This document shows, piece by piece, positions 4,001 to 21,917 of a DNA stretch of 64,000 nt; the stretch's first letter is position 1, and the number at the start of each line of letters is the position of its first letter. Made by a program: the position numbers and the translations under genes. Source of the DNA: Cytophagaceae bacterium (GTDB taxonomy: Bacteria; Bacteroidota; Bacteroidia; Cytophagales; Cytophagaceae); contig JALONH010000002.1 of NCBI GenBank assembly GCA_025455005.1, positions 62,001 to 126,000 of the forward strand, read 5' to 3'. The notes beneath the pieces were generated by a model that was not told the origin of the DNA, did no database searches, and saw nothing but the letters and a program-made list of their open reading frames with translations.

Positions 4001-5224
4001 ATGAAAAAGATGTTACGTAAAATAGCAGTTGTAACAGGAATAGGTACAGCGCTACTGATACTACCTTCTGCACAAAAATCAATGCAGCAAGAAGATGTTA
4101 TAAAAATAGGTTTTATACCATTAACCGATTGTGCTCCGATTGTAATGGCTAAAGAATATGGTTTGTTTAAAAAACAAGGTGTAAACGTCGTTGTTACCAA
4201 AGAAGCTTCTTGGGCAAACGTACGCGACAAACTGTTAACCGGCGAACTTCAAGCCGCTCATTGTTTGTCCAGTATGCCACTTTCTGTATATACCGGTGTA
4301 GGTGGTAAAGCAGGATCAGAGTTGAAGATTGCCATGATACTTAATACCAATGGTCAAGCTATCACATTATCCAATGAATTTTGCGGTAAAATAGGTTTTA
4401 AGCAAGTGAATAAAGTAAAAGGTGTAGTGGATGCACGCAAGGCATCAGGTAAAGAGGTGACGTTTGCTATGACCTTCCCGGGTGGAACGCACGATATGTG
4501 GTTACGTAACTGGTTAGCGAATGCAGGAATTAATCAAAAGTCTGTTAAAATCATTACTATTCCTCCACCACAAATGGTAGCGAACATGAAAGTAGGAAAT
4601 ATGGATGGTTTTTGCGTAGGAGAACCTTGGAATGGCGTAGCTGTAGCACAGACAGTAGGTTTTACACACTTAGCTACTCAAGATATTTGGAAACACCATC
4701 CGGAAAAAGCGTTGGTTGTTAACAAAGCCTTCGCAGAAGGGAAACGCGATCAATTGAAAAAAGTAATGAAAGCGGTTATGGAAGCGTGTAAACTATTAGA
4801 TAATGGAGCCAATAGAAAACAATCTGCAACTGTTATCGGTGCACCTAGTTATGTTAACGCAGCTCCAGCCGTTATAGAAAACCGTTTAGCCGGTATCTAC
4901 GACTTAGGTTGTAACCAAGGACAGGTAACCTATGTAGATGATTATATGCTATTCCATAAAAAAGGTTTAGTTAACTTCCCAAGACGATCACATATGTATT
5001 GGTACTTAGCTCAATATGTTCGTTTCGGATATTTGTCTGAGGAGCCTAATTATAAAGAGGTAGTAGATAAATTATTAATGCAGGATCTTTACAAAGAAGT
5101 GGCAACAGAAATGGGCGTTGCTATTCCGAACGATGATATGACACCATTTGCTACTAATATCGAACCGGGTGCAACATTTGATCCTAAAAATCCATCAGCG
5201 TACTTAAGTACTTGTAAAAAATAA
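4001..5224 (+). CDS. nrtA: NrtA-like nitrate ABC transporter substrate-binding protein
   Basis: At 407 residues this is a normal length for the NrtA/CmpA family. An N-terminal export signal (to about residue 25, LLILPSAQ) precedes the binding domain, which opens with IKIGFIPLTDCAPIVMAKEYG, the family hallmark. Further family features are the GGTHDMWLRNWL segment and FCVGEPWN, which line the anion site in NrtA. It sits between the porin and nrtB. It would deliver nitrate, or possibly nitrite or cyanate, to the inner-membrane permease. Nitrate is favoured because nitrate and nitrite reductase genes follow. Confidence 0.9.
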   Translation: MKKMLRKIAVVTGIGTALLILPSAQKSMQQEDVIKIGFIPLTDCAPIVMAKEYGLFKKQGVNVVVTKEASWANVRDKLLTGELQAAHCLSSMPLSVYTGVGGKAGSELKIAMILNTNGQAITLSNEFCGKIGFKQVNKVKGVVDARKASGKEVTFAMTFPGGTHDMWLRNWLANAGINQKSVKIITIPPPQMVANMKVGNMDGFCVGEPWNGVAVAQTVGFTHLATQDIWKHHPEKALVVNKAFAEGKRDQLKKVMKAVMEACKLLDNGANRKQSATVIGAPSYVNAAPAVIENRLAGIYDLGCNQGQVTYVDDYMLFHKKGLVNFPRRSHMYWYLAQYVRFGYLSEEPNYKEVVDKLLMQDLYKEVATEMGVAIPNDDMTPFATNIEPGATFDPKNPSAYLSTCKK

Positions 5225-5247
5225 TATTTCTATAACCGGAATTAGAT

Positions 5248-6111
5248 ATGAAAACTATGACTTTAAAATCATTTCTACCTGGTTTGACGGATAAATCTAC
5301 GGGTGCAGCTTCTGCACCCGTATTTTCCCAATCGATTTATATCGTTAAACAAACCCTAACGAATCTGTTTCTTTCTTTAGTAGGTATCGGGTTATTCTTA
5401 TTGATGTGGGAAGGAATCAGTGTATACTTAGATCGTAATCTACCCGGCCCATTGGCCACCTTAACCGTGTTATGGAGTATGATTAGTAATCCATGGTATG
5501 ATAATGGACCAAATGATAAAGGTATTGGTTTACAATTGATGATGTCCATTGAACGCGTGTTCAAAGGATTTTCTATTGCTACTATATTAGCTATACCTGT
5601 TGGTGTGTTACTTGGTTCTAGTAAACTATTTTACAAAATGTTTGATCCTATTGTACAAATATTGAAACCGGTATCTCCATTAGCTTGGTTCCCTATAGGA
5701 TTGGTAGCACTTAAGAACGCCGGTTCTGCTACAGTGTTTATTATCTTTATTACGTCTTTATGGCCTACACTAATCAATACAGCAGTTGGTGTTGCATCCA
5801 TTCCGGATGATTTCAGAAACGTAAGTAAAGCATTTGGTTTTTCTCCCTTCCGTTATATTACAAAAGTGTTACTTCCTTATTCTGTACCTCACATTATTAC
5901 AGGGCTACGCTTGAGTATTGGAGTGGCTTGGTTGGTAATCGTTGCCGGTGAAATGTTATCCGGAGGTACGGGTATCGGCTTCTTTGTATGGGACAGTTGG
6001 AATGCTTTAAGTTTAGAAAAGGTGATTTCAGCCATCATCATTATTGGTACTGTTGGTCTATTGTTGGATCGTTTCTTCTTATTCTTAGGAAAGAAGTTCT
6101 CTTATAAATAA
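5248..6111 (+). CDS. nrtB: Nitrate ABC transporter permease NrtB
   Basis: This 287-residue integral membrane protein has about six hydrophobic segments. The cytoplasmic EAA-type loop of the BPD_transp_1 family is visible as the segment from FRNVSKAFGFSPFRYI to VLLPYSVPHIITGLR. The N-terminal portion (KQTLTNLFLSLVGIGLFLLMWEG) matches NrtB/SsuC permeases. It lies 23 bp after nrtA and 40 bp before the ATPase, so it is co-transcribed with them. It would form the homodimeric channel of the nitrate importer. Confidence 0.92.
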   Translation: MKTMTLKSFLPGLTDKSTGAASAPVFSQSIYIVKQTLTNLFLSLVGIGLFLLMWEGISVYLDRNLPGPLATLTVLWSMISNPWYDNGPNDKGIGLQLMMSIERVFKGFSIATILAIPVGVLLGSSKLFYKMFDPIVQILKPVSPLAWFPIGLVALKNAGSATVFIIFITSLWPTLINTAVGVASIPDDFRNVSKAFGFSPFRYITKVLLPYSVPHIITGLRLSIGVAWLVIVAGEMLSGGTGIGFFVWDSWNALSLEKVISAIIIIGTVGLLLDRFFLFLGKKFSYK

Positions 6112-6151
6112 AATACCCATAATTTCATTCACACCCTTGAACTAAAAAAAT

Positions 6152-6979
6152 ATGGAAACTCCTTTAGATATAAATGATACCTCTGTTTACCATTCCGAAT
6201 TGGGTATACAGATTCGCAACGTAGATATCTCTTTCCCCACTCCAAAAGGTATTTATACCGCAGTTAAAAATATTAATCTAAATATTAAATCCGGTGAGAT
6301 TGTTTCTCTAATCGGACATTCAGGTTGTGGTAAATCTACTATTCTGAACGCTATTGGTGGCTTAGTAAAACCAACCAAAGGGGAAGTAGTAGTGAAATAT
6401 AAAACAATTACTGCTCCGGGACCGGATAGGGGTATAGTATTTCAACATTATTCCTTGCTCCCCTGGATGTCTGTATTTGAAAACATCTATCAAGCAGTAG
6501 ATTCTGTTTTTCCGGATAAATCCAAATCCGAGAAAAAAGAAATTGTTCATTATTATTTACAAAAAGTAGGTTTAATGAATCATAAAGATAAATCGCCCCA
6601 ACAAATTTCCGGAGGTATGAAACAACGGACCGCCATAGCGCGTGCTTTTGCGATTAATCCTAATATTCTATTGTTGGATGAACCCTTTGGTGCATTAGAT
6701 GCTTTAACAAAAAGTTCTTTACATGAAGAATTAACCGCGCTTTGGAGTTCGGACGAACAAAAGAAAACAATTGTTATGGTTACTCACGATATAGAAGAAG
6801 CGATTTTCTTATCGGATAAAATTGTAGTACTCACGAACGGACCGGCGGCTACAATTGGTGAAATTATACCTGTTAACATTCCACGGCCAAGAGAGAAAAA
6901 AACCTTTGTGGCCAGCCCTGAATACAAGGCGATACGAGACCAACTGTTGTACTTATTGATGGAGGCTTACGCCGCTTAA
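6152..6979 (+). CDS. nrtD: Nitrate ABC transporter ATPase NrtD
   Basis: This 275-residue single ABC domain has Walker A GHSGCGKST, a Q-loop (VFQHYSLLPWMS), signature ISGGMKQR, Walker B ILLLDEPFGALD and switch His in MVTHDIEEA. It lacks the C-terminal substrate-binding-like extension of cyanobacterial NrtC, so NrtD is the better name. It is the last gene before the terminator at 7012, giving a four-gene porin-nrtA-nrtB-nrtD operon. Confidence 0.92.
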   Translation: METPLDINDTSVYHSELGIQIRNVDISFPTPKGIYTAVKNINLNIKSGEIVSLIGHSGCGKSTILNAIGGLVKPTKGEVVVKYKTITAPGPDRGIVFQHYSLLPWMSVFENIYQAVDSVFPDKSKSEKKEIVHYYLQKVGLMNHKDKSPQQISGGMKQRTAIARAFAINPNILLLDEPFGALDALTKSSLHEELTALWSSDEQKKTIVMVTHDIEEAIFLSDKIVVLTNGPAATIGEIIPVNIPRPREKKTFVASPEYKAIRDQLLYLLMEAYAA

Positions 6980-7185: not shown

Positions 7186-10100
7186 ATGGCAGCTCTTCGT
7201 ACTACTCAAACATCTACTTGTTCCTATTGTGGAGTAGGTTGTGGTGTGCAAATTCATACATATACTAATGGTAACGTAGAAGTGGAAGGGGATCCTTCGC
7301 ATCCGGCCAGTAAAGGGATGTTGTGTTCTAAAGGTATGAACCTTCACTATGCTGCTATGGATACGTCAGATCGTATTCTTCATCCTATGATGCGGGCTCA
7401 TAGAGATCTTCCCTTGCAGCAGGTGTCATGGGAAGCTGCTATTCAACGCGCTGCGGGTGTTTTCTCTTCTATCATTAAAAAATATGGGCCGGATTCTGTT
7501 GGTTTTTACGTATCCGGTCAATGTCTCACAGAAGAATATTATCTGGTTAATAAAATTACAAAAGGGTTTCTAGGAACAAATAATATTGATACAAATTCCC
7601 GATTGTGCATGAGTTCTGCTGTGGTTGGTTACAAATCAACCCTAGGTGAAGATAGTGTTCCTGTCTCTTATGATGATATTGAATTAGCCGATTGCTTTTT
7701 TATTACGGGTGCCAATCCGGCGTGGTGTCATCCAATATTATTTCGACGAATAGAAGCGCATAAAGCAGCTAATCCTAACGTTACGATTATAGTTGCTGAT
7801 CCTAGAAAAACTCAAACGTGTGCGATAGCAGATATTCATTTACCCATTCAGCCTGGAACCGATATTTATTTGTATCACGCTCTTTCTCGAGTATTAATCG
7901 AAGAAAACTATATCGATACTGAATTTATAAATCAATACACGGATGGTTTTGAGGCGCTTCGTTCTCAAGTAATGTCTACCTCTTTAGAAGAGTATGCATT
8001 ACAGTGTGACGTTCCACTTCAAGATATTCAATTAGCAGCACGAGCTATTGGAAAAGCCAAAGGATATATTTCGATGTGGGCAATGGGTTTGAACCAAAGT
8101 GTGATTGGCGTTAAAAAAAACGTTGCCTTAATCAATTTGTCTTTGATTACAGGTAAGATAGGGAAACCCGGTAATGGACCTTTTTCACTGACCGGTCAGC
8201 CCAATGCTATGGGAGGACGTGAAGTTGGTGGTTTAGCTAATTTATTGCCGGCTCATTTCAATTTGGCTAATGCAGAACATAGAAAGTATGTAGCGGATTT
8301 TTGGGGTGTTCCTACCATTCAAGAAAAACCTGGATTTACTGCTACTGAAATGTTTCAACATTTGGCTTCCGGTAAAATGAAAGCGATTTGGATTATTTGT
8401 ACTAACCCGTTAGTAAGTCTACCGGATGCTACTCAAATTGAAGCAGCTTTAGATAAAGCAGCGTTTGTAGTGGTGCAAGATATTTCCAATCGCTCCGATA
8501 CCATAGCCTATGCTGACTTAGTACTTCCTGCTGCTGCTTATATGGAAAAAGAAGGCGTTATGACGAATTCCGATCGACGTATAAGTTACTTAAATAAAGT
8601 ATTAGAAGCACCCGGGCAAGCTTTACCGGATATTGAAATATTGACACGCTTTGCGCACGCTATGGGATGGAAGGAATCCTTTAATTATACCTGTGCTGCG
8701 GATATTTTTAATGAATACACTCAAATAACTCGGCATACCAATATTGATATTAGTGGGTTATCGTATGATGATTTGAAAAAAAGAAGAAGCGTTCAGTGGC
8801 CTGTGCCTACTCCCGGTCATCCCGGTACACCCCGTTTATTTACCGATTTTAAATTTTATACTCCCAATACCAAAGCGCAGATTGGAACTGCATCTCCTGA
8901 AAATCAGTCTGCACCTACAACACCTGATTTTCCATTGATATTGACTACCGGACGCATACGAGATCAATGGCATACCATGACCAGAACGGGAAAAGTAAGA
9001 AAGCTTACTTCTCATATCGCAAAACCTTATCTAGAAATACATCCGGAAGATGCTGCTGTTCGTGGCTTAAAACAAGATGCCATAGCGGAAATTTATAATT
9101 CATTAGGATCTGTTCGTGTACCGGTAAAAATAACAGAAGATATTCGAAAAGGGTGTGTTTTTTTACCCATGCATTGGGGTAAAATTATGCAATCTACACA
9201 AGCTAGGGCCAATAATATAACGCATACAGTAGTGGATCCGATTTCAAAAGAACCAGATTTTAAATATAATGCTGTAGAGGTAAAAGTTTATACTAAACCG
9301 AAAGAACATATTATTATAATAGGTGCAGGTGCTGCGGCTTGTCAGTTTATTCGAAGACATAAAGCATTAGCGCCTGACGATGTTCTTACTGTTTTTAGCG
9401 GTGAAGTAAATCCATTTTACAATCGTGTATTACTTCCGGAATACCTGAGTGGACATAAAATGTGGAAACACTTACAAAAACTGGAAGAGCCCGAATGGAA
9501 CGCTTTAGGAGTTAATGTCATTCGGCAGCGAATTGAACACATTAATAAAGAGTCTAAGATAATTACAGATGCCTCCGGTATTCGGTATTCTTATGATCGC
9601 TTGATTGTAGCCACCGGTAGTCGTGCTTTTAGATTGAAATCCTTACCTGCTTTGGAGGGTATCTATACCATTCGACAAAAAGAAGATACCGATAAATTAT
9701 TACATAGAATAAAGAAAGGGGATAATGTTGTAGTAGTAGGTGGTGGATTACTTGGTTTGGAAATGGCAGATGCTTTGGTTGAAATCGGTATGAAAGTAAC
9801 CGTTATTCAACGTTCCAATCGTTTAATGGACCGTCAATTGGATAAGACTTCCGCAGATTTATTAGCGGAAGAATTGCAAGACAGAGGCATGGATTTGTAT
9901 TTCAATGATGAAGTATTGTATATCAATGGAGAAAAAGAAGTTGAAAGCATTCGATTACGAAGTAGTCGAAAAATTGACTGTAAAGCTGTTTTGTTTGCTA
10001 TAGGGACTCAACCTAATATAGAATTATTGAAAGAAGCCGGAGTGACAACCAATAGAGGAGTAGTGGTGAATGAATACCTGCAAACGTCAGATGTGTCCAT

Positions 10101-10710
10101 ATACGCAATGGGGGAAATAGCTGAATGTAATGGACAACTATTTGGGATAACAGCAGCAGCTGAAGAGCAAGCAAATGTACTGTCTGCTCATTTGACGGGA
10201 GATCCCACTGCTTTCTATAAAGGAAGTTTAAGTATGAATATCTTAAAGGTACACGGCGTTGAATTATGTTCCATCGGAATGATTGAGATTCCTTCAGATG
10301 AAGAAGGGTATGAGGAAGTGGTATTTATGGATAAACACCGTAGATACTATAAAAAATGTATTGTGTACAAAGATCGTTTAGTGGGTGCTATTTTAATGGG
10401 GGATAAATCTGAATTTAATGAGTTTAGAAGTCTTATTCATTCGCAAACAGAGCTAGGGGATAAACGAGCACAATTGTTGACTTCTGGAAATAGTACGAAA
10501 GAACCTTTGATGGGAAAATTAGTCTGTAGTTGTAATGGGGTAGGTGAGGGAAACATAGAAAAGGCGGTACATTCCGGATGTGTGGACTTTGTTCAACTTT
10601 GTTCAACAACAGGAGCGGGTACAGGTTGCGGAAGTTGCAAACCGGAAGTAAAAGCAATTTTAGATCGTTGTTCGATTAAACAGATGAAGGAGGTTGAACA
10701 TGTCCACTAA
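7186..10710 (+). CDS. nasA: Fused assimilatory nitrate reductase: MoCo catalytic + FAD/NAD(P)H + [2Fe-2S] BFD domains
   Basis: This 1174-residue protein joins three modules. Residues 1 to about 700 form the molybdopterin bis-MGD catalytic part. Its [4Fe-4S] site has Cys12, Cys15, Cys19 and Cys47, and it carries family segments such as TGQPNAMGGREVGG and the C-terminal molybdopterin-dinucleotide-binding region. From about 706 there is an NirB-like pyridine nucleotide oxidoreductase with two Rossmann motifs (IIIIGAGAAACQF and VVVVGGGLLGLEMADAL). From about 1110 there is a BFD-like [2Fe-2S] domain (VCSCNGVGEG and CGSC). Such a chain could pass electrons from NAD(P)H to nitrate in one polypeptide, replacing separate NasB/NasC subunits. 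The start was set at ATG 7186, after the operator region. Confidence 0.92.
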   Translation: MAALRTTQTSTCSYCGVGCGVQIHTYTNGNVEVEGDPSHPASKGMLCSKGMNLHYAAMDTSDRILHPMMRAHRDLPLQQVSWEAAIQRAAGVFSSIIKKYGPDSVGFYVSGQCLTEEYYLVNKITKGFLGTNNIDTNSRLCMSSAVVGYKSTLGEDSVPVSYDDIELADCFFITGANPAWCHPILFRRIEAHKAANPNVTIIVADPRKTQTCAIADIHLPIQPGTDIYLYHALSRVLIEENYIDTEFINQYTDGFEALRSQVMSTSLEEYALQCDVPLQDIQLAARAIGKAKGYISMWAMGLNQSVIGVKKNVALINLSLITGKIGKPGNGPFSLTGQPNAMGGREVGGLANLLPAHFNLANAEHRKYVADFWGVPTIQEKPGFTATEMFQHLASGKMKAIWIICTNPLVSLPDATQIEAALDKAAFVVVQDISNRSDTIAYADLVLPAAAYMEKEGVMTNSDRRISYLNKVLEAPGQALPDIEILTRFAHAMGWKESFNYTCAADIFNEYTQITRHTNIDISGLSYDDLKKRRSVQWPVPTPGHPGTPRLFTDFKFYTPNTKAQIGTASPENQSAPTTPDFPLILTTGRIRDQWHTMTRTGKVRKLTSHIAKPYLEIHPEDAAVRGLKQDAIAEIYNSLGSVRVPVKITEDIRKGCVFLPMHWGKIMQSTQARANNITHTVVDPISKEPDFKYNAVEVKVYTKPKEHIIIIGAGAAACQFIRRHKALAPDDVLTVFSGEVNPFYNRVLLPEYLSGHKMWKHLQKLEEPEWNALGVNVIRQRIEHINKESKIITDASGIRYSYDRLIVATGSRAFRLKSLPALEGIYTIRQKEDTDKLLHRIKKGDNVVVVGGGLLGLEMADALVEIGMKVTVIQRSNRLMDRQLDKTSADLLAEELQDRGMDLYFNDEVLYINGEKEVESIRLRSSRKIDCKAVLFAIGTQPNIELLKEAGVTTNRGVVVNEYLQTSDVSIYAMGEIAECNGQLFGITAAAEEQANVLSAHLTGDPTAFYKGSLSMNILKVHGVELCSIGMIEIPSDEEGYEEVVFMDKHRRYYKKCIVYKDRLVGAILMGDKSEFNEFRSLIHSQTELGDKRAQLLTSGNSTKEPLMGKLVCSCNGVGEGNIEKAVHSGCVDFVQLCSTTGAGTGCGSCKPEVKAILDRCSIKQMKEVEHVH
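10687..10693 (+). promoter_or_regulatory. Strong Shine-Dalgarno that fixes the next gene's start
   Basis: AAGGAGG lies 6 nt before the ATG at 10700, inside the last codons of nasA. Strong Shine-Dalgarno sequences are uncommon in Bacteroidota, so this one both selects ATG 10700 over the upstream TTG (10694) and suggests efficient re-initiation after nasA. Confidence 0.75.
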
Positions 10711-12160
10711 TATTCCAATAACAGTATTTACAAATGGAGGAATCGTTTCTCCGGGTGATTTAAGAAAAATTGCAATGGCGGCACACCAATCCGGTGCCGA
10801 AGATATTTATATTGGGAATCGCCAAGAACTACGGTTTTATACTTCTAAAGCAGCTGTAGATGCTTTGTCAGATCGACTATCTTCTTTAAATGTTCGATAT
10901 GCGATAGGAGAAACTGTATTTAAAAATATTGTCACCTCAGCCGTTATTAAGGATATTCTTAAAACGAAAATATGGTTAACAGAAGGGTATTATAGAGATT
11001 TATTGGAATCTTTTACATTTCAACCTGCTATTCCCATCAATATTGTGGATTCTGATCAATATGCTGTGCCCTTGTTCTCCGGTACGCTTAATTTTATAGC
11101 AGCAGCGGAAGAAGATTTTTGGTATATTTTTATACATGCACCCAATCACAAAATATCAGATTGGATGCCGGTGTTAATCAATACAGCTCAAATCCCTTTT
11201 TTAGTTGAACGTCTTGAGCCTTTCTTAATGAAATCCTCTTCTATCCTTACAATGGAGATGTTGATGTCTGAAGTATACAAGAGTGATTTTTGGGTATTTA
11301 AGAATTATGAAAAACTCCCTCGTATACCGGCTTATCATTATTTTCGACAAGAAGGATTTCACTCTATGGGAGAAAAATTTTGGTTAGGTGTATTTAATAA
11401 GAAGAATCGATTTTCTATTACATCCCTGGATGCCTTTGCTGTTGCTGCATTAGAAACAAAAATTGGTAGTTTTTATATTACACCATGGGATAGTATTATG
11501 GTTAAAAATATTTCCGAAGAGCATATTTCTGTTTGGGAAGATGTTTTGGGTTTAAATAATATCAATACAGGCCATGCTGCTGTCGATTTATGTTGGAATT
11601 GTAATGAATGGGATCTTGGTGCTTTAGGTTTGAGAAATAAAATTAGTCAAATTTTATTAGAGCAAGATGCAAGATGCGAAGGAATGATTATAGGTGTGAA
11701 TACTCCAATACATGATTCGTTTTATTCCATCAATATTCAAGAGGAAGGTTTGTTTTCATTATTTGGGAAAAAGTATTTTTCAAGGTATCATATACGTTAT
11801 AAAGAATCGTTTAATCCGAATGATCCAACAGTCAAACCTTTTATGGATCATATTCCGGAAAAAGAACTACCCTCGTTTATTCATTATCTAATGGATTCCT
11901 TTTATAAAAACAAACGAGAGAAAAAGAATATAGCTATTACAAGTAACGCACCTAAGGGTATGATTCCTAAATCGAAATATATCTACTTAGAATGTAAACA
12001 TTGTGCTACCGTTTATCACCCTCAAGTGGGAGATTCTAGAAGTGAAATACCCGCGGGCGTATCATTTGATCAATTACCGGATGCTTATGTGTGTTCTGTT
12101 TGTAGTGCTCCTAAAACCGATTTTATTTTGTCTTCCCAACAAATTGAAGTACTTTCATAA
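10700..12160 (+). CDS. Sulfite/nitrite-reductase-fold protein without siroheme motif, with C-terminal rubredoxin
   Basis: This 486-residue protein overlaps the nasA end by 11 bp. Residues 1-80 match the ferredoxin-like half domain of nitrite/sulfite reductases (GGIVSPGDLRKIAMAA, then IGNRQELRFY). A KNIVTS segment and a second ferredoxin-like half (about 225-290) complete the fold order. The Cys motifs that bind siroheme and [4Fe-4S] are absent: only CWNC and an isolated Cys remain. The C-terminal 45 residues form a rubredoxin with CKHC and CSVC clusters binding one iron. I infer an electron carrier or scaffold between NasA and its donor or NirBD. It is unlikely to be an active nitrite reductase. 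No named function is known to me. Confidence 0.7.
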   Translation: MSTNIPITVFTNGGIVSPGDLRKIAMAAHQSGAEDIYIGNRQELRFYTSKAAVDALSDRLSSLNVRYAIGETVFKNIVTSAVIKDILKTKIWLTEGYYRDLLESFTFQPAIPINIVDSDQYAVPLFSGTLNFIAAAEEDFWYIFIHAPNHKISDWMPVLINTAQIPFLVERLEPFLMKSSSILTMEMLMSEVYKSDFWVFKNYEKLPRIPAYHYFRQEGFHSMGEKFWLGVFNKKNRFSITSLDAFAVAALETKIGSFYITPWDSIMVKNISEEHISVWEDVLGLNNINTGHAAVDLCWNCNEWDLGALGLRNKISQILLEQDARCEGMIIGVNTPIHDSFYSINIQEEGLFSLFGKKYFSRYHIRYKESFNPNDPTVKPFMDHIPEKELPSFIHYLMDSFYKNKREKKNIAITSNAPKGMIPKSKYIYLECKHCATVYHPQVGDSRSEIPAGVSFDQLPDAYVCSVCSAPKTDFILSSQQIEVLS

Positions 12161-12162
12161 TA

Positions 12163-13119
12163 ATGAATAAAGTAATTGATCCATTTGGACGAACGTTTCA
12201 AACGTTACGCGTAAGTTTATCCGAATCATGTTCAATGGCATGTGTCTATTGTGTTCACTCTGAATCTTCATTATCGGAATCCAATGCCGATTCTACTTCT
12301 GCTGTACTTACGGTTGAAGGGTATTTGTCTATTATCCAATCCATCCACCATATTACTCCACTAACCACTATACGTTTAACTGGCGGAGAACCATTGTTAT
12401 TTAAACCACTTCCGGAATTAATAAAAGGGATCGTAAACCTCGGGATTTCCTCTATAAAAATTACAACGAATGGATTGCAGTTGTTAGATCGGTTGTCCGA
12501 ATTAAAAGAAGCCGGATTACGGTCTATTAATATTTCATTGGATGCACTTGATCCGGATACTTTTTATTCGTTAACCCGAGTGAATAAAATTAAAAAAGTA
12601 TTGGATGGTATTGAGGCTGCTGTGTCTTCGGGTTTAGAAGTAAAACTAAATACAGTTGTATTGAAAAATTTTAATGAACACCAGATTGTACCCTTGTTGG
12701 AATATGCTGCCGGAAGAAATATTCCCATTCGTTTTTTGGAGTTAATGTCGATGGGGTATTTAAATAAATCACACGAATCGTACTTTGTATCGCAAGAAGA
12801 AATATTGGATATCATCCAAAGGGTAACAACGATAGCTCGTATACCCAGAAGTATGTCGTCTACCGCGAATTATTGGATGACGGCAAGAGGGTGGAAATTT
12901 GGTGTTATCGCAAATTCATCCGAGCCTTTTTGCATGGATTGTAATCGCCTTCGATTAGATTCATATGGGAATATATGGGGTTGTTTAAGTTCTACAGTAT
13001 CGTATTCCGCTAAAAATAAAACGCAGGATGAACTACAACAAATCTTAGCTGCAGCGTTAGCTACAAAACAAACCGCTTTTTCAGGAAGTGCGTTAAGTAT
13101 GAAATATATTGGGGGGTAG
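12163..13119 (+). CDS. moaA: GTP 3',8-cyclase MoaA (molybdenum cofactor synthesis)
   Basis: This 318-residue radical SAM enzyme catalyses the first step of molybdopterin synthesis, GTP to cyclic 3',8-dihydro-GTP. The N-terminal cluster CSMACVYC (CxxxCxxC) binds SAM, and TGGEPLL is the SAM-binding motif. The C-terminal second [4Fe-4S] cluster is visible as FCMDCNRLRLDS followed by GC in NIWGCL. It starts 2 bp after the rubredoxin gene, so it is co-expressed with the molybdoenzyme it serves. The C-terminal GG motif of activator peptides is also present (KYIGG). Confidence 0.94.
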   Translation: MNKVIDPFGRTFQTLRVSLSESCSMACVYCVHSESSLSESNADSTSAVLTVEGYLSIIQSIHHITPLTTIRLTGGEPLLFKPLPELIKGIVNLGISSIKITTNGLQLLDRLSELKEAGLRSINISLDALDPDTFYSLTRVNKIKKVLDGIEAAVSSGLEVKLNTVVLKNFNEHQIVPLLEYAAGRNIPIRFLELMSMGYLNKSHESYFVSQEEILDIIQRVTTIARIPRSMSSTANYWMTARGWKFGVIANSSEPFCMDCNRLRLDSYGNIWGCLSSTVSYSAKNKTQDELQQILAAALATKQTAFSGSALSMKYIGG

Positions 13120-13156
13120 AAAATATATTTTAATTTTATTGCTTAAATAGTTAATT

Positions 13157-13783
13157 ATGTATTGTGGATCACCGATTCCGGATTCTCTATCGTTGAATCT
13201 ATTATGGCTCTGCGGCGGAAATAGTTCTAGAATGGGATATGATAAAGCTCAAGCAAAGTTGCAGGGATATAATTCTAATTTTTTAGATTGTGCTATTGCC
13301 TTGTCGACTCAATTATCGATGGAGACGTATTTTTCTATTCGCTCGGATCAGCAATTGCAATATCAACATATAGTTCCACTTAACCGATGTATTGTAGATG
13401 GTACGTATTCCAATGGGCCATTGAATGGAATTGCTTCTGCCTATAATTTTTCGTCTTCTGTTGATTGGTTGATTATACCAATTGATATGCCGTTATTAAC
13501 GATAGAATGTGTTCAAACGTTAATCAATCATTATACTGAAGATCATTTAGAAGCAGATGTTTTTGCTTACGAAATGCCGAGTGGTTTTATTCAACCTTTC
13601 CCCAGCATATATACAAAAGAAGCTTTGCATAAATTGTTTTGGCTTCTAACTTCCAATAGCTTAGAAAAAAATAGTTGTAAAGAGGCTATGGATGTATTAC
13701 ATACTAAAACGTATAAGATTGCTTTTGATTACGAAAAATGTTTTTTAAATTTTAATTCCCCAAGTGATCTTCAATCGTTCTGA
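13157..13783 (+). CDS. mobA: MobA-like molybdenum cofactor guanylyltransferase
   Basis: This 208-residue protein opens its nucleotidyltransferase domain with LCGGNSSRMGYDKA, a MobA-type variant of the LAGGxSxRMGxdK loop. A DGTYSNGPLNGI segment matches the GPL.Gi motif and IIPIDMPLLT matches the metal-binding D.P. motif. It would attach GMP to molybdopterin to give the MGD cofactor needed by nitrate reductase. It lies 37 bp after moaA and is the last gene of the nasA operon. No terminator is obvious before the promoter at 13802. Confidence 0.85.
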   Translation: MYCGSPIPDSLSLNLLWLCGGNSSRMGYDKAQAKLQGYNSNFLDCAIALSTQLSMETYFSIRSDQQLQYQHIVPLNRCIVDGTYSNGPLNGIASAYNFSSSVDWLIIPIDMPLLTIECVQTLINHYTEDHLEADVFAYEMPSGFIQPFPSIYTKEALHKLFWLLTSNSLEKNSCKEAMDVLHTKTYKIAFDYEKCFLNFNSPSDLQSF

Positions 13784-19042: not shown

Positions 19043-19396
19043 TTATACATTCAGGCCAACGTATATCAAGCCGTCTTCTACCTTTATTGGATACGTCTTT
19101 ATTTCATAATTATCGCCGGAAAGACAAGCACCGGATTTCAAGCTGAATGTTTTTTTATGAAAAGGACAAGCTACTTTTGGTTCTCCTTGCATGTCTCCAA
19201 TCATACCTCTCGATAAAATCATTTGTTGTCGGTGTGGACAAAGGTTGTCCGTTGCATACCATTCGCCTCTTCTTGTGAAATTATAAATAGCGATTTGTTT
19301 TCCGTCAATTAAGGCACATGCGCCTCCATTTTCAGGTATATCTTGTACCGTTGCTACACGATGCCATAAGATGTCAGTAGTGGTCATAGAATTCAT
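19043..19396 (-). CDS. nirD: Nitrite reductase small subunit NirD (Rieske protein)
   Basis: This 117-residue protein has the Rieske [2Fe-2S] ligand boxes CPHR (in TDNLCPHRQ) and CPFHKK (in VACPFHKKTF), normal for NirD. It is the partner of NirB in NAD(P)H-dependent nitrite reduction to ammonium in the cytoplasm. It follows nirB by 19 bp and ends before a terminator, so the two form an operon. A second in-frame ATG nine bases on (MTTTD) is an equally possible start. Confidence 0.95.
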   Translation of the reverse strand: MNSMTTTDILWHRVATVQDIPENGGACALIDGKQIAIYNFTRRGEWYATDNLCPHRQQMILSRGMIGDMQGEPKVACPFHKKTFSLKSGACLSGDNYEIKTYPIKVEDGLIYVGLNV

Positions 19397-19415
19397 AGTA
19401 GGTGTTGATAGAAAG

Positions 19416-21917
19416 TTAAACTGTCCAATTACTTGGTTTTTTCATTTCACGCATTGGCTCAAAGGCCATTTCGGCATCACTATCCGTAGAGTTAACAAAC
19501 GTTTTGAAGCGCTTACGTAATTCGGGGTTCTCCACTACTTCTTTCCACTCACAGTGATACGTATCTACTAACAATTGCATTTCACGTAACAATTGCTCGT
19601 TGATTCCTAAGCTATCCTGAATAACTACTTGTTTTAAGTAGTCCAAACCACCTTCCATTTTGTTTAACCAGGTAGCAGTACGGGTTAATGGTTCAGCGGT
19701 TTTTATGTAAAACATCATAATTAAATCAATGTATCGTATACAGGTTTCCTCGTCTATGTCTTGAGCAAAAAGTAATGCGTGCTGTGGTTTTGCACCACCG
19801 TTTCCACATACATATAAATTCCAACCTTTTTCCGTAGCAATAATGCCGAAATCCTTCGCTTGTGCTTCTGCGCATTCTCGTACACAACCGGAAACTCCCA
19901 TTTTAACTTTATGTGGAGAGCGTATACCTTTGTATCGGTCTTCAACTCGAATAGCAAAACTTACAGAGTCTTGTACACCAAATCGGCACCAAGTGGAACC
20001 TACACAACTTTTTACCGTTCGTAGCGATTTTCCATAAGCATGACCACTTTCAAAACCGGCATTAACTAATTCTTCCCAGATGTCCGGTAATAGATGTACC
20101 GGTGCTCCAAATAAATCGATACGCTGACCGCCGGTAATTTTAGTATATAAATTATATTTTTTGGCAACTTCACCAATCACAATTAATTTTTCCGGGGTTA
20201 TTTCTCCTCCTGCTATTCTAGGTACAACAGAATACGTTCCGCCCTTTTGCAAGTTTGCGAGGTATCGATCATTCGAGTCTTGAATGGTATCTTGTTTTAA
20301 AATGACTTCATTCCAAACACTGGCTAGAATAGAAGCAACAGCGGGTTTACATATTTCACATCCATCCCCTTTGCCATGTTGATTTAAGATCTCATCATAT
20401 TTTTTTAAACCGCCAACCTTTACAAGGTCCAATAATTCTTGACGCGAATAATCGAAGTGTTCACACAGAACATTTTTTATAACTTTACCTTGTGCTTTTA
20501 ATGTTTCTTTAATTAAATCATTCACCATTGGAACACAACCACCACATCCTGTTCCTGCTTTCGTACATTTTTTTATGGCACCAATATCTGTATTGCCTTC
20601 TTCGACCGCTAAACAAAGTGCCCCTTTGGTTACACTTTCACATGAACAAACAACGGCTTCATCCGGCAATTGCATAACCCCGGCGCCGCCGGAAGATTTC
20701 CCTTCTCCTCTTGCTCCTAATATTAAATCTTCCGGGTGCTCGGGCAACACCATTTTGTTGTTGACCATTTGGAGTAACATGTTGTACTGCTCCGCATCGC
20801 CCACTAAAATGCCTCCAATCACATGTTTTTTATCCGCTGAAATATTGAGTCGTTTATAGATACCTTTTTCTTTATGTTCAAAACAGATTTTAGTAGCTCC
20901 CTCCGCTGACCCAAACGCATCTCCAAAACTAGCTACATCTACACCAATTAATTTTAATTTAGTAGACATATCGAAGGCACTGAACGATTTCTGACCACCG
21001 GTCAATCGATCTGCCACTACTTCTGCCATTTCATATCCGGGAGCTACTAATCCGTAAATCATGCTACGGTGTAACGCACATTCACCAATAGCATAAATAT
21101 TTTGTTGAGAAGTTTGTAAAGCATCGTTTACCACAATGCCTCCTCGAGGTCCAATTTCTAATCCTGCTTTAGCCGCTACTTCATCTCTTGGTTTAATACC
21201 CGCTGAGATAACAACCATATCTACTTCTAACCTACTATTGTCCGCAAACTGAAGTGCAGTTACGGATGCGGCTCCATCAAAGAAGGATGTATTTTTATTT
21301 AAATGTATTTTAATACCTAAAGACTCTAATTTTGTCTGTAACGTTTCGGAACCTGTATCGTCGAGTTGTCTCGGCATTAATCGAGGGGCAAATTCAACTA
21401 CGTGTGTCTCTAGCCCTAAGTCCATTAAAGCTTTACCGGCTTCTAATCCTAAAAGGCCTCCTCCTATAACCGCACCTATCTTTGATTTTTTGGCATATGA
21501 AATTATTAAATCTAGATCCTCTATGGTTCTATAAACAAAAATTCCATCCTTTTCGACTCCCGGTATCGTTGGTACAAATGCAGCAGAACCGGTAGCTATA
21601 ACTAAATGATCATATGCAAACGTTTTACCCTGCAACGTGTAAATGCATTTTTTGCTAGGATCAATTTTTTGAACCGGGTCACCTAAATGCAATGCAATGG
21701 AATTGTCGATATACCACTCCACCGGAGCCATAGTTAAATGATCCGGATTAGGATTTGTGAAATACTCACTTAAATGAACCCGGTCGTATGCCGGTCTCGG
21801 CTCTTCACCTATAACAGTTATTTCGAACGTACGAGATGAGTCTTTTTTCAAGAGCTTCTCGCAGAATTTATAGCCAACCATCCCGTTGCCTACAACTACT
21901 ACTTTTTCTGTGTTCAT
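19416..21917 (-). CDS. nirB: NAD(P)H-dependent nitrite reductase large subunit NirB
   Basis: This 833-residue enzyme has the normal length and order. An N-terminal FAD/NAD(P)H reductase (VVVVGNGMVGYKFCEKLL and GAVIGGGLLGLEAGKALMDLG) is followed by a BFD-type [2Fe-2S] domain (VVCSCESVTKGAL with TGCGGC) and a second Cys-rich BFD-like region (GDGCEICKP). The C-terminal siroheme/[4Fe-4S] reductase module has CVGSTWCRFG and GVSGCVREC. It reduces nitrite to ammonium with NirD. The upstream region carries the same 17-mer and TACGTA sites as the nitrate transport operon. Confidence 0.96.
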   Translation of the reverse strand: MNTEKVVVVGNGMVGYKFCEKLLKKDSSRTFEITVIGEEPRPAYDRVHLSEYFTNPNPDHLTMAPVEWYIDNSIALHLGDPVQKIDPSKKCIYTLQGKTFAYDHLVIATGSAAFVPTIPGVEKDGIFVYRTIEDLDLIISYAKKSKIGAVIGGGLLGLEAGKALMDLGLETHVVEFAPRLMPRQLDDTGSETLQTKLESLGIKIHLNKNTSFFDGAASVTALQFADNSRLEVDMVVISAGIKPRDEVAAKAGLEIGPRGGIVVNDALQTSQQNIYAIGECALHRSMIYGLVAPGYEMAEVVADRLTGGQKSFSAFDMSTKLKLIGVDVASFGDAFGSAEGATKICFEHKEKGIYKRLNISADKKHVIGGILVGDAEQYNMLLQMVNNKMVLPEHPEDLILGARGEGKSSGGAGVMQLPDEAVVCSCESVTKGALCLAVEEGNTDIGAIKKCTKAGTGCGGCVPMVNDLIKETLKAQGKVIKNVLCEHFDYSRQELLDLVKVGGLKKYDEILNQHGKGDGCEICKPAVASILASVWNEVILKQDTIQDSNDRYLANLQKGGTYSVVPRIAGGEITPEKLIVIGEVAKKYNLYTKITGGQRIDLFGAPVHLLPDIWEELVNAGFESGHAYGKSLRTVKSCVGSTWCRFGVQDSVSFAIRVEDRYKGIRSPHKVKMGVSGCVRECAEAQAKDFGIIATEKGWNLYVCGNGGAKPQHALLFAQDIDEETCIRYIDLIMMFYIKTAEPLTRTATWLNKMEGGLDYLKQVVIQDSLGINEQLLREMQLLVDTYHCEWKEVVENPELRKRFKTFVNSTDSDAEMAFEPMREMKKPSNWTV

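Follow-up and report, generated by a model that had tools for sequence, protein, structure and literature searches.

In Paracoccus, the NirD-like Rieske protein NasG is a small carrier that is encoded with the assimilatory reductases, is needed for NasC and NasB, and receives electrons of NADH through NasB and relays them to both enzymes (PMC4724949, PMC5424462). The protein analyzed here, psSiR-Rd (psSiR for short, a SiR/NiR-fold pseudoenzyme with a C-terminal rubredoxin), differs from NasG in fold and cofactor, and its genome also has a NirD of its own. It shares with CysI, NirA and plant NiR the two-half fold, the order of the half-domains, the RQ of the TNRQ/FGxRQ motif and homology over approximately 390 positions. 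Compared to CysI and NirA, however, it lacks the siroheme/[4Fe-4S] cysteines and any PF01077 signal, and a rubredoxin has been added. The latter has two CxxC knuckles, a PF00301 match and its fold in common with other rubredoxins. A carrier fused to a redox-enzyme-like body is likewise found in flavorubredoxin NorV and in rubredoxin-hydroxylamine reductase, but the body of psSiR is a dead SiR fold, and no Gly follows its first knuckle. In addition, the second half-domain (residues 216-278) gives a weak profile match to the precorrin-3B synthase CobG, although the score (TIGR02435, 15.3 bits) is far from the cut-off of 234.8 bits and the genomic context is different.

The gene lies in a 64-kb stretch of Cytophagaceae bacterium (assembly GCA_025455005.1, contig JALONH010000002.1, 62,001-126,000), referred to as the window, in which all positions are given (Table 1). 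Residue numbers taken from alignments count from Ser 1 at position 10703.

Table 1. Features of the psSiR-Rd gene and its surroundings, in window positions
Feature	Position	Strand	Basis
nrtABC-type nitrate ABC transporter genes, upstream of nasA, same strand	4001..6979	+	ORFs; conserved in relatives
NasA fusion: NasC-type Mo/4Fe-4S catalytic subunit, NirB-like FAD diaphorase, BFD [2Fe-2S]	7186..10710	+	Pfam/NCBIfam, comparison
Shine-Dalgarno AAGGAGG within nasA 3' end, 6 nt ahead of ATG 10700	10687..10693	+	sequence
psSiR-Rd, 486 aa	10700..12160	+	ORF, Pfam, AlphaFold, Foldseek, family
11-base overlap of psSiR start and nasA end	10700..10710	+	sequence
First NIR_SIR_ferr half-domain, residues 7-60 of the 486-aa ORF	10718..10879	+	Pfam, column counts
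First SiR body domain, ~residues 61-215, degenerate, no PF01077 match	10880..11344	+	Pfam, AlphaFold, hhalign
Second ferredoxin-like half-domain, ~residues 216-278	11345..11533	+	Pfam second stretch, weak CobG match, alignment columns
Second SiR body domain, ~residues 279-410	11534..11929	+	hhalign, alignment columns
Flexible linker, ~25 residues	11912..11986	+	pLDDT, family identity
Rubredoxin domain, residues 430-475, both CxxC present	11987..12124	+	Pfam, Foldseek, genome scan
moaA-like and mobA-like molybdenum cofactor genes, directly downstream of psSiR	12163..13783	+	ORFs, profiles
nirD and nirB, siroheme nitrite reductase, Cys ligands intact	19043..21917	-	profiles

Gene, fold and catalytic site of psSiR-Rd

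The longest ORF begins at TTG 10694, and the sequence indicates that translation likely starts instead at ATG 10700, behind the Shine-Dalgarno sequence; the 486-aa frame from this ATG closes with a stop codon ending at 12160. As the TAA of nasA occupies positions 10708-10710, the two genes overlap by 11 bases. The longest ORF of nasA opens at TTG 7048, with ATG 7186 as the more probable start. Upstream lie genes that we take, from knowledge of the family, to be of the nrtABC type, and downstream only 2 bases separate psSiR from the moaA-like gene. The window genome encodes a genuine NirB as well as a genuine SiR. The latter (contig C19, approximately 205072-207258) is a 729-aa protein that has the two NIR_SIR domains and a C-terminus extended over a long stretch, and a cobA-like gene directly follows it.

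Two Pfam families matched the psSiR of the window above the cut-off: NIR_SIR_ferr (PF03460, E=2.5e-7), in two stretches, and Rubredoxin (PF00301, E=2.6e-14). No Pfam match was obtained in this copy to NIR_SIR (PF01077), the siroheme/4Fe-4S domain, and a PHD_4 match below the cut-off was discarded as a coincidence of the Cys pattern. The AlphaFold2 model, built from 55 aligned sequences, reached a pLDDT of 89.6 and a pTM of 0.79. Its best PDB match by Foldseek was NirA of M. tuberculosis (1zj8, E=1.3e-17), and the other top matches were E. coli SiRHP (4g39/6c3m) and spinach NiR (2akj), over approximately 460 columns; rubredoxins were matched separately, with TM scores (target) of up to 0.94. 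Using seven real SiR/NirA proteins as the target (E. coli CysI, the SiR of the window genome and five of NirA type), hhalign aligned psSiR residues 4-407 with CysI 80-545 (E=4e-7). The matches listed from PDB sequence searches were rubredoxin-containing chains only, and a viral fold library gave no match at E<=0.001. psSiR is thus predicted by the model to have the complete two-half SiR/NiR fold. The first half-domain holds the family-invariant R and Q of FGxRQ, as counted in alignment columns, and the second ferredoxin-like half-domain is the most conserved domain across the family.

The second SiR body domain is where real enzymes carry the four siroheme/4Fe-4S cysteines, which are absent in the window copy. 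Across the family, the alignment columns equivalent to C434, C440, C479 and C483 of CysI contain no conserved Cys; PF01077 matched none of the 55 members scanned, and PF03460 matched 51 of them. Five further CysI residues, R83, R117, R153, R214 and K217, were compared, with their roles in SiR assumed from general knowledge. The counterparts of R153 (mostly P or Q) and R214 (P) are lost family-wide, and those of R83 (K/R), R117 (R) and K217 (K) are retained in most members; the window copy retains only that of R117, with T at R83 and P at K217. The invariant polar residues of the family are R40, Q41, N75, N113, Q119 and N130. As far as can be read from these residues, the body can probably no longer assemble a siroheme-[4Fe-4S] centre and is a putative pseudoenzyme.

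The rubredoxin domain was found in 55 of 55 members scanned, and all four of its cysteines are kept in 97 of 98 relatives, the exception being genome G126 (see below). Even in two members (L129 and L123) in which the loop between the knuckles has shrunk to 8 and 15 residues, the four cysteines remain. The linker in front of it measures 21-32 residues across members, with 9% pairwise identity, and the pLDDT falls below 50 at residues 416-423. A genome-wide scan found no second rubredoxin in the window genome. Gly after the first CxxC is usual, though not absolute, in rubredoxins; in psSiR this residue is mostly L, F or M and is Gly in none of the 98 members, unlike the two rubredoxins of L030, which carry CGY. 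The redox potential, and even the metal (Fe or Zn), are therefore uncertain.

These results uphold the structural part of what a sequence-only reading of this DNA had proposed, namely that the half-domain order of SiR is kept, that the siroheme/[4Fe-4S] ligands are gone, that a rubredoxin has been added and that the gene is coupled to nasA, as the overlap behind AAGGAGG indicates. That reading had also staked itself on the predicted structure resembling sulfite reductase, and the model resembles NirA, SiRHP and plant NiR. It had, however, overlooked the NirB-like NADH diaphorase within NasA itself and the family that extends across the phylum.

Spread of the family and its link to NasA and NirB

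Of 395 genomes sampled from the phylum, 29 gave long matches to the SiR body, and a pattern scan of GTDB species genomes confirmed at least 584 relatives. The best 80 of these belong to Bacteroidota or Balneolota, except for one MAG labelled Williamsia (Actinomycetota), which has a typical Bacteroidota nas operon, nests among Chitinophagaceae and is probably mis-binned or mislabelled. In plasmid records of Spirosoma and Hymenobacter the gene is annotated as 'rubredoxin' beside 'nitrate reductase', and both the sequence and the context of WP_232563077.1 from Spirosoma oryzicola place it in the family. Two Aquirufa species descriptions list a 'rubredoxin' among the assimilatory nitrate/nitrite genes, and according to one of them three strains have it along with the nitrate and nitrite reductases, whereas a fourth lacks all of them (PMC12528234, PMC10821818). 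The likeness of this Aquirufa 'rubredoxin' to psSiR is by operon description only. In the passages found on it, the operon protein of Bacteroidota is recorded simply as rubredoxin, with no mention of a SiR-fold body. Our literature searches found no functional study of psSiR-Rd, which is a widespread Bacteroidota protein filed in databases only as "rubredoxin". The notion that a rubredoxin is already present in Bacillus NasB was dropped, B. subtilis having no PF00301 match in the control set. Of three plasmid loci from Bacillota, two contain NirB and the third has no annotation.

In all 95 pairs inspected, psSiR is located downstream of a fused nasA on the same strand, at distances ranging from an overlap to approximately 1.2 kb and with an extra ORF between them in some loci; nirB is often not adjacent. 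On one MAG scaffold (L091) the gene lies away from nasA, next to FUSC, lipid A acyltransferase and TauE/SafE genes. Among the 395 genomes, the full NasA fusion occurs in 33, NirB in 28 and psSiR in 29, with all three together in 28. Every NirB genome (28/28) has both psSiR and the fused NasA, which ties psSiR to the NirBD route, and 28 of the 29 psSiR carriers have the fused NasA. In addition, each of five genera (g3, g4, g15, g16 and g25) includes members with the complete set of three genes as well as members with none of them, so the module is present or absent as a whole. The distances of NasA and psSiR correlate (r=0.88), which shows shared descent rather than contact.

The five genomes with a fused NasA that lack psSiR also lack NirB, and a siroheme NirA-type gene lies beside or close to their nasA. 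Their NasA fusions (L136-L140, from G219, G050, G008, G155 and G179) form a sister clade, and in four of the five, genes that appear flavodoxin-like and reductase-like from their translations lie between the NirA-type gene and nasA. On the NasA tree, one branch (SH-aLRT 97) separates the psSiR-bearing from the psSiR-less sequences, so the use of NirB or NirA represents a single evolutionary contrast. This sister clade suggests that the body of psSiR may descend from a NirA-type neighbour of NasA.

G126, a genome rated 100% complete, has a psSiR body with neither fused NasA nor NirB. Its ORF (L135, approximately 273-1556) keeps the conserved motifs of the body and stops cleanly where the linker begins, and a genome scan found no rubredoxin anywhere else. 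The contig end truncates the locus on its upstream side alone and leaves the body ORF whole. As the gene lies near the contig start, the missing nasA could be partly an assembly matter. Taken at face value, this one case shows the rubredoxin lost when its presumed redox partners were lost.

The window copy is itself divergent. Its NasA is 53-60% identical to those of other members, but its psSiR just 27-31%, and of the family pairs whose NasA identity is similar, only 0.3% have a psSiR identity lower than the window mean. The divergence lies in the SiR body (25-33% versus 36-54% between other members) and not in the rubredoxin (43% versus 48%). The family CxxC at positions 246/249, in the second half-domain, has been lost, and a private CWNC (residues 297-300, window 11591-11602) is aligned with the position of the lost C434 of CysI.

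Possible roles of psSiR-Rd

Real NirB, according to its Pfam domains, consists of a diaphorase/BFD module followed by SiR-fold domains. This order is mirrored by the NirB-like end of NasA and the dead SiR fold, with its tethered rubredoxin, encoded by the next gene, and we therefore favour a non-catalytic role for psSiR-Rd in the NasA-NirBD module, as a subunit for docking and electron transfer whose tethered rubredoxin would act as a one-electron carrier. We give this role about an even chance. The basis consists of the fold, the loss of the catalytic cysteines, the conserved rubredoxin, the linkage and the co-occurrence; from these we infer that a complex forms and that electrons are transferred, and in which direction and to which recipient. 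The dead body would act as a scaffold onto which the NirB-like NADH diaphorase of the NasA fusion docks. The rubredoxin arm would be reduced, one electron at a time, by the FAD/[2Fe-2S] module of NasA and would pass the electrons to the [4Fe-4S]/Mo site of that enzyme and/or to NirBD, and the reductions of nitrate and nitrite would thus share electrons, much as they do via NasG in Paracoccus.

The sequence-only reading had likewise suggested that electrons are shuttled to the nitrate reductase. The linkage to nasA, the four-Cys rubredoxin on a flexible tether and its being the sole rubredoxin of the genome argue for this, as do the four cysteines kept despite shrunken loops, a rubredoxin unchanged in a window copy with an altered body, and the single case of G126, where rubredoxin and reductases are missing together. 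The related NasA fusions that occur without psSiR tell against it in part, since they indicate that not all such enzymes require a rubredoxin between FAD and Mo.

The same reading had alternatively proposed that nitrite is bound and passed to NirBD. In this form psSiR would be a scaffold coupling NasA to NirBD, its body mimicking the siroheme domain or dimer of NirB and handing over nitrite, with the rubredoxin secondary. The perfect co-occurrence with NirB, the absence of psSiR where NirA is used and the SiR fold are in keeping with such a scaffold, and the six invariant polar residues suggest a kept pocket or interface. The family-wide loss of the R153 and R214 counterparts, joined in the window copy by those of R83 and K217, speaks against nitrite binding; moreover, in the window lineage it is the body that changes fastest while the rubredoxin stays, and nirB often lies elsewhere. 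We regard this scaffold as possible, but doubtful.

A more far-reaching proposal concerns how the docking and electron-transfer subunit might have arisen: as a third component of assimilatory nitrate reduction throughout the phylum, a nitrite reductase beside NasA that was disarmed when NirBD replaced it and that, having acquired a rubredoxin, turned into a hub distributing electrons and linking the reduction of nitrate to that of nitrite. We offer this history only tentatively, and it is rather doubtful as a whole.

Translational coupling to nasA and the molybdenum cofactor genes directly downstream would also fit a structural or maturation factor, chaperone-like for NasA, with Zn or Fe playing a purely structural part in its four-Cys domain; the non-Gly knuckle residues agree with this. 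The domain nevertheless resembles electron-carrying rubredoxins both in its sequence and in its fold and is flexibly tethered, and a role confined to NasA leaves the co-occurrence with NirB unexplained, which makes such a factor unlikely. Rubredoxins are redox-active, and the family CxxC at 246/249 could be a switch, as would suit a protein that regulates the nas operon, or the activity of NasA, in response to redox state or NO. Yet Pfam found no DNA-binding or signalling domain in the window copy or in 55 members, the gene sits inside a structural operon, and the window copy is still kept without C246 and C249; we consider regulation improbable. An active siroheme nitrite or sulfite reductase with unusual ligands would share the overall fold, but it is hardly credible when all four cluster cysteines and several siroheme contacts are missing in every member checked and the genome already encodes genuine versions of NirB and SiR.

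A conserved companion of nasA and NirBD across Bacteroidota implies an enzyme complex unlike the textbook assimilatory systems. psSiR-Rd would clearly exemplify, in nature, the conversion of a siroheme reductase into a pseudoenzyme, and how cells balance the production of nitrite against its use could be tested directly through this one gene.
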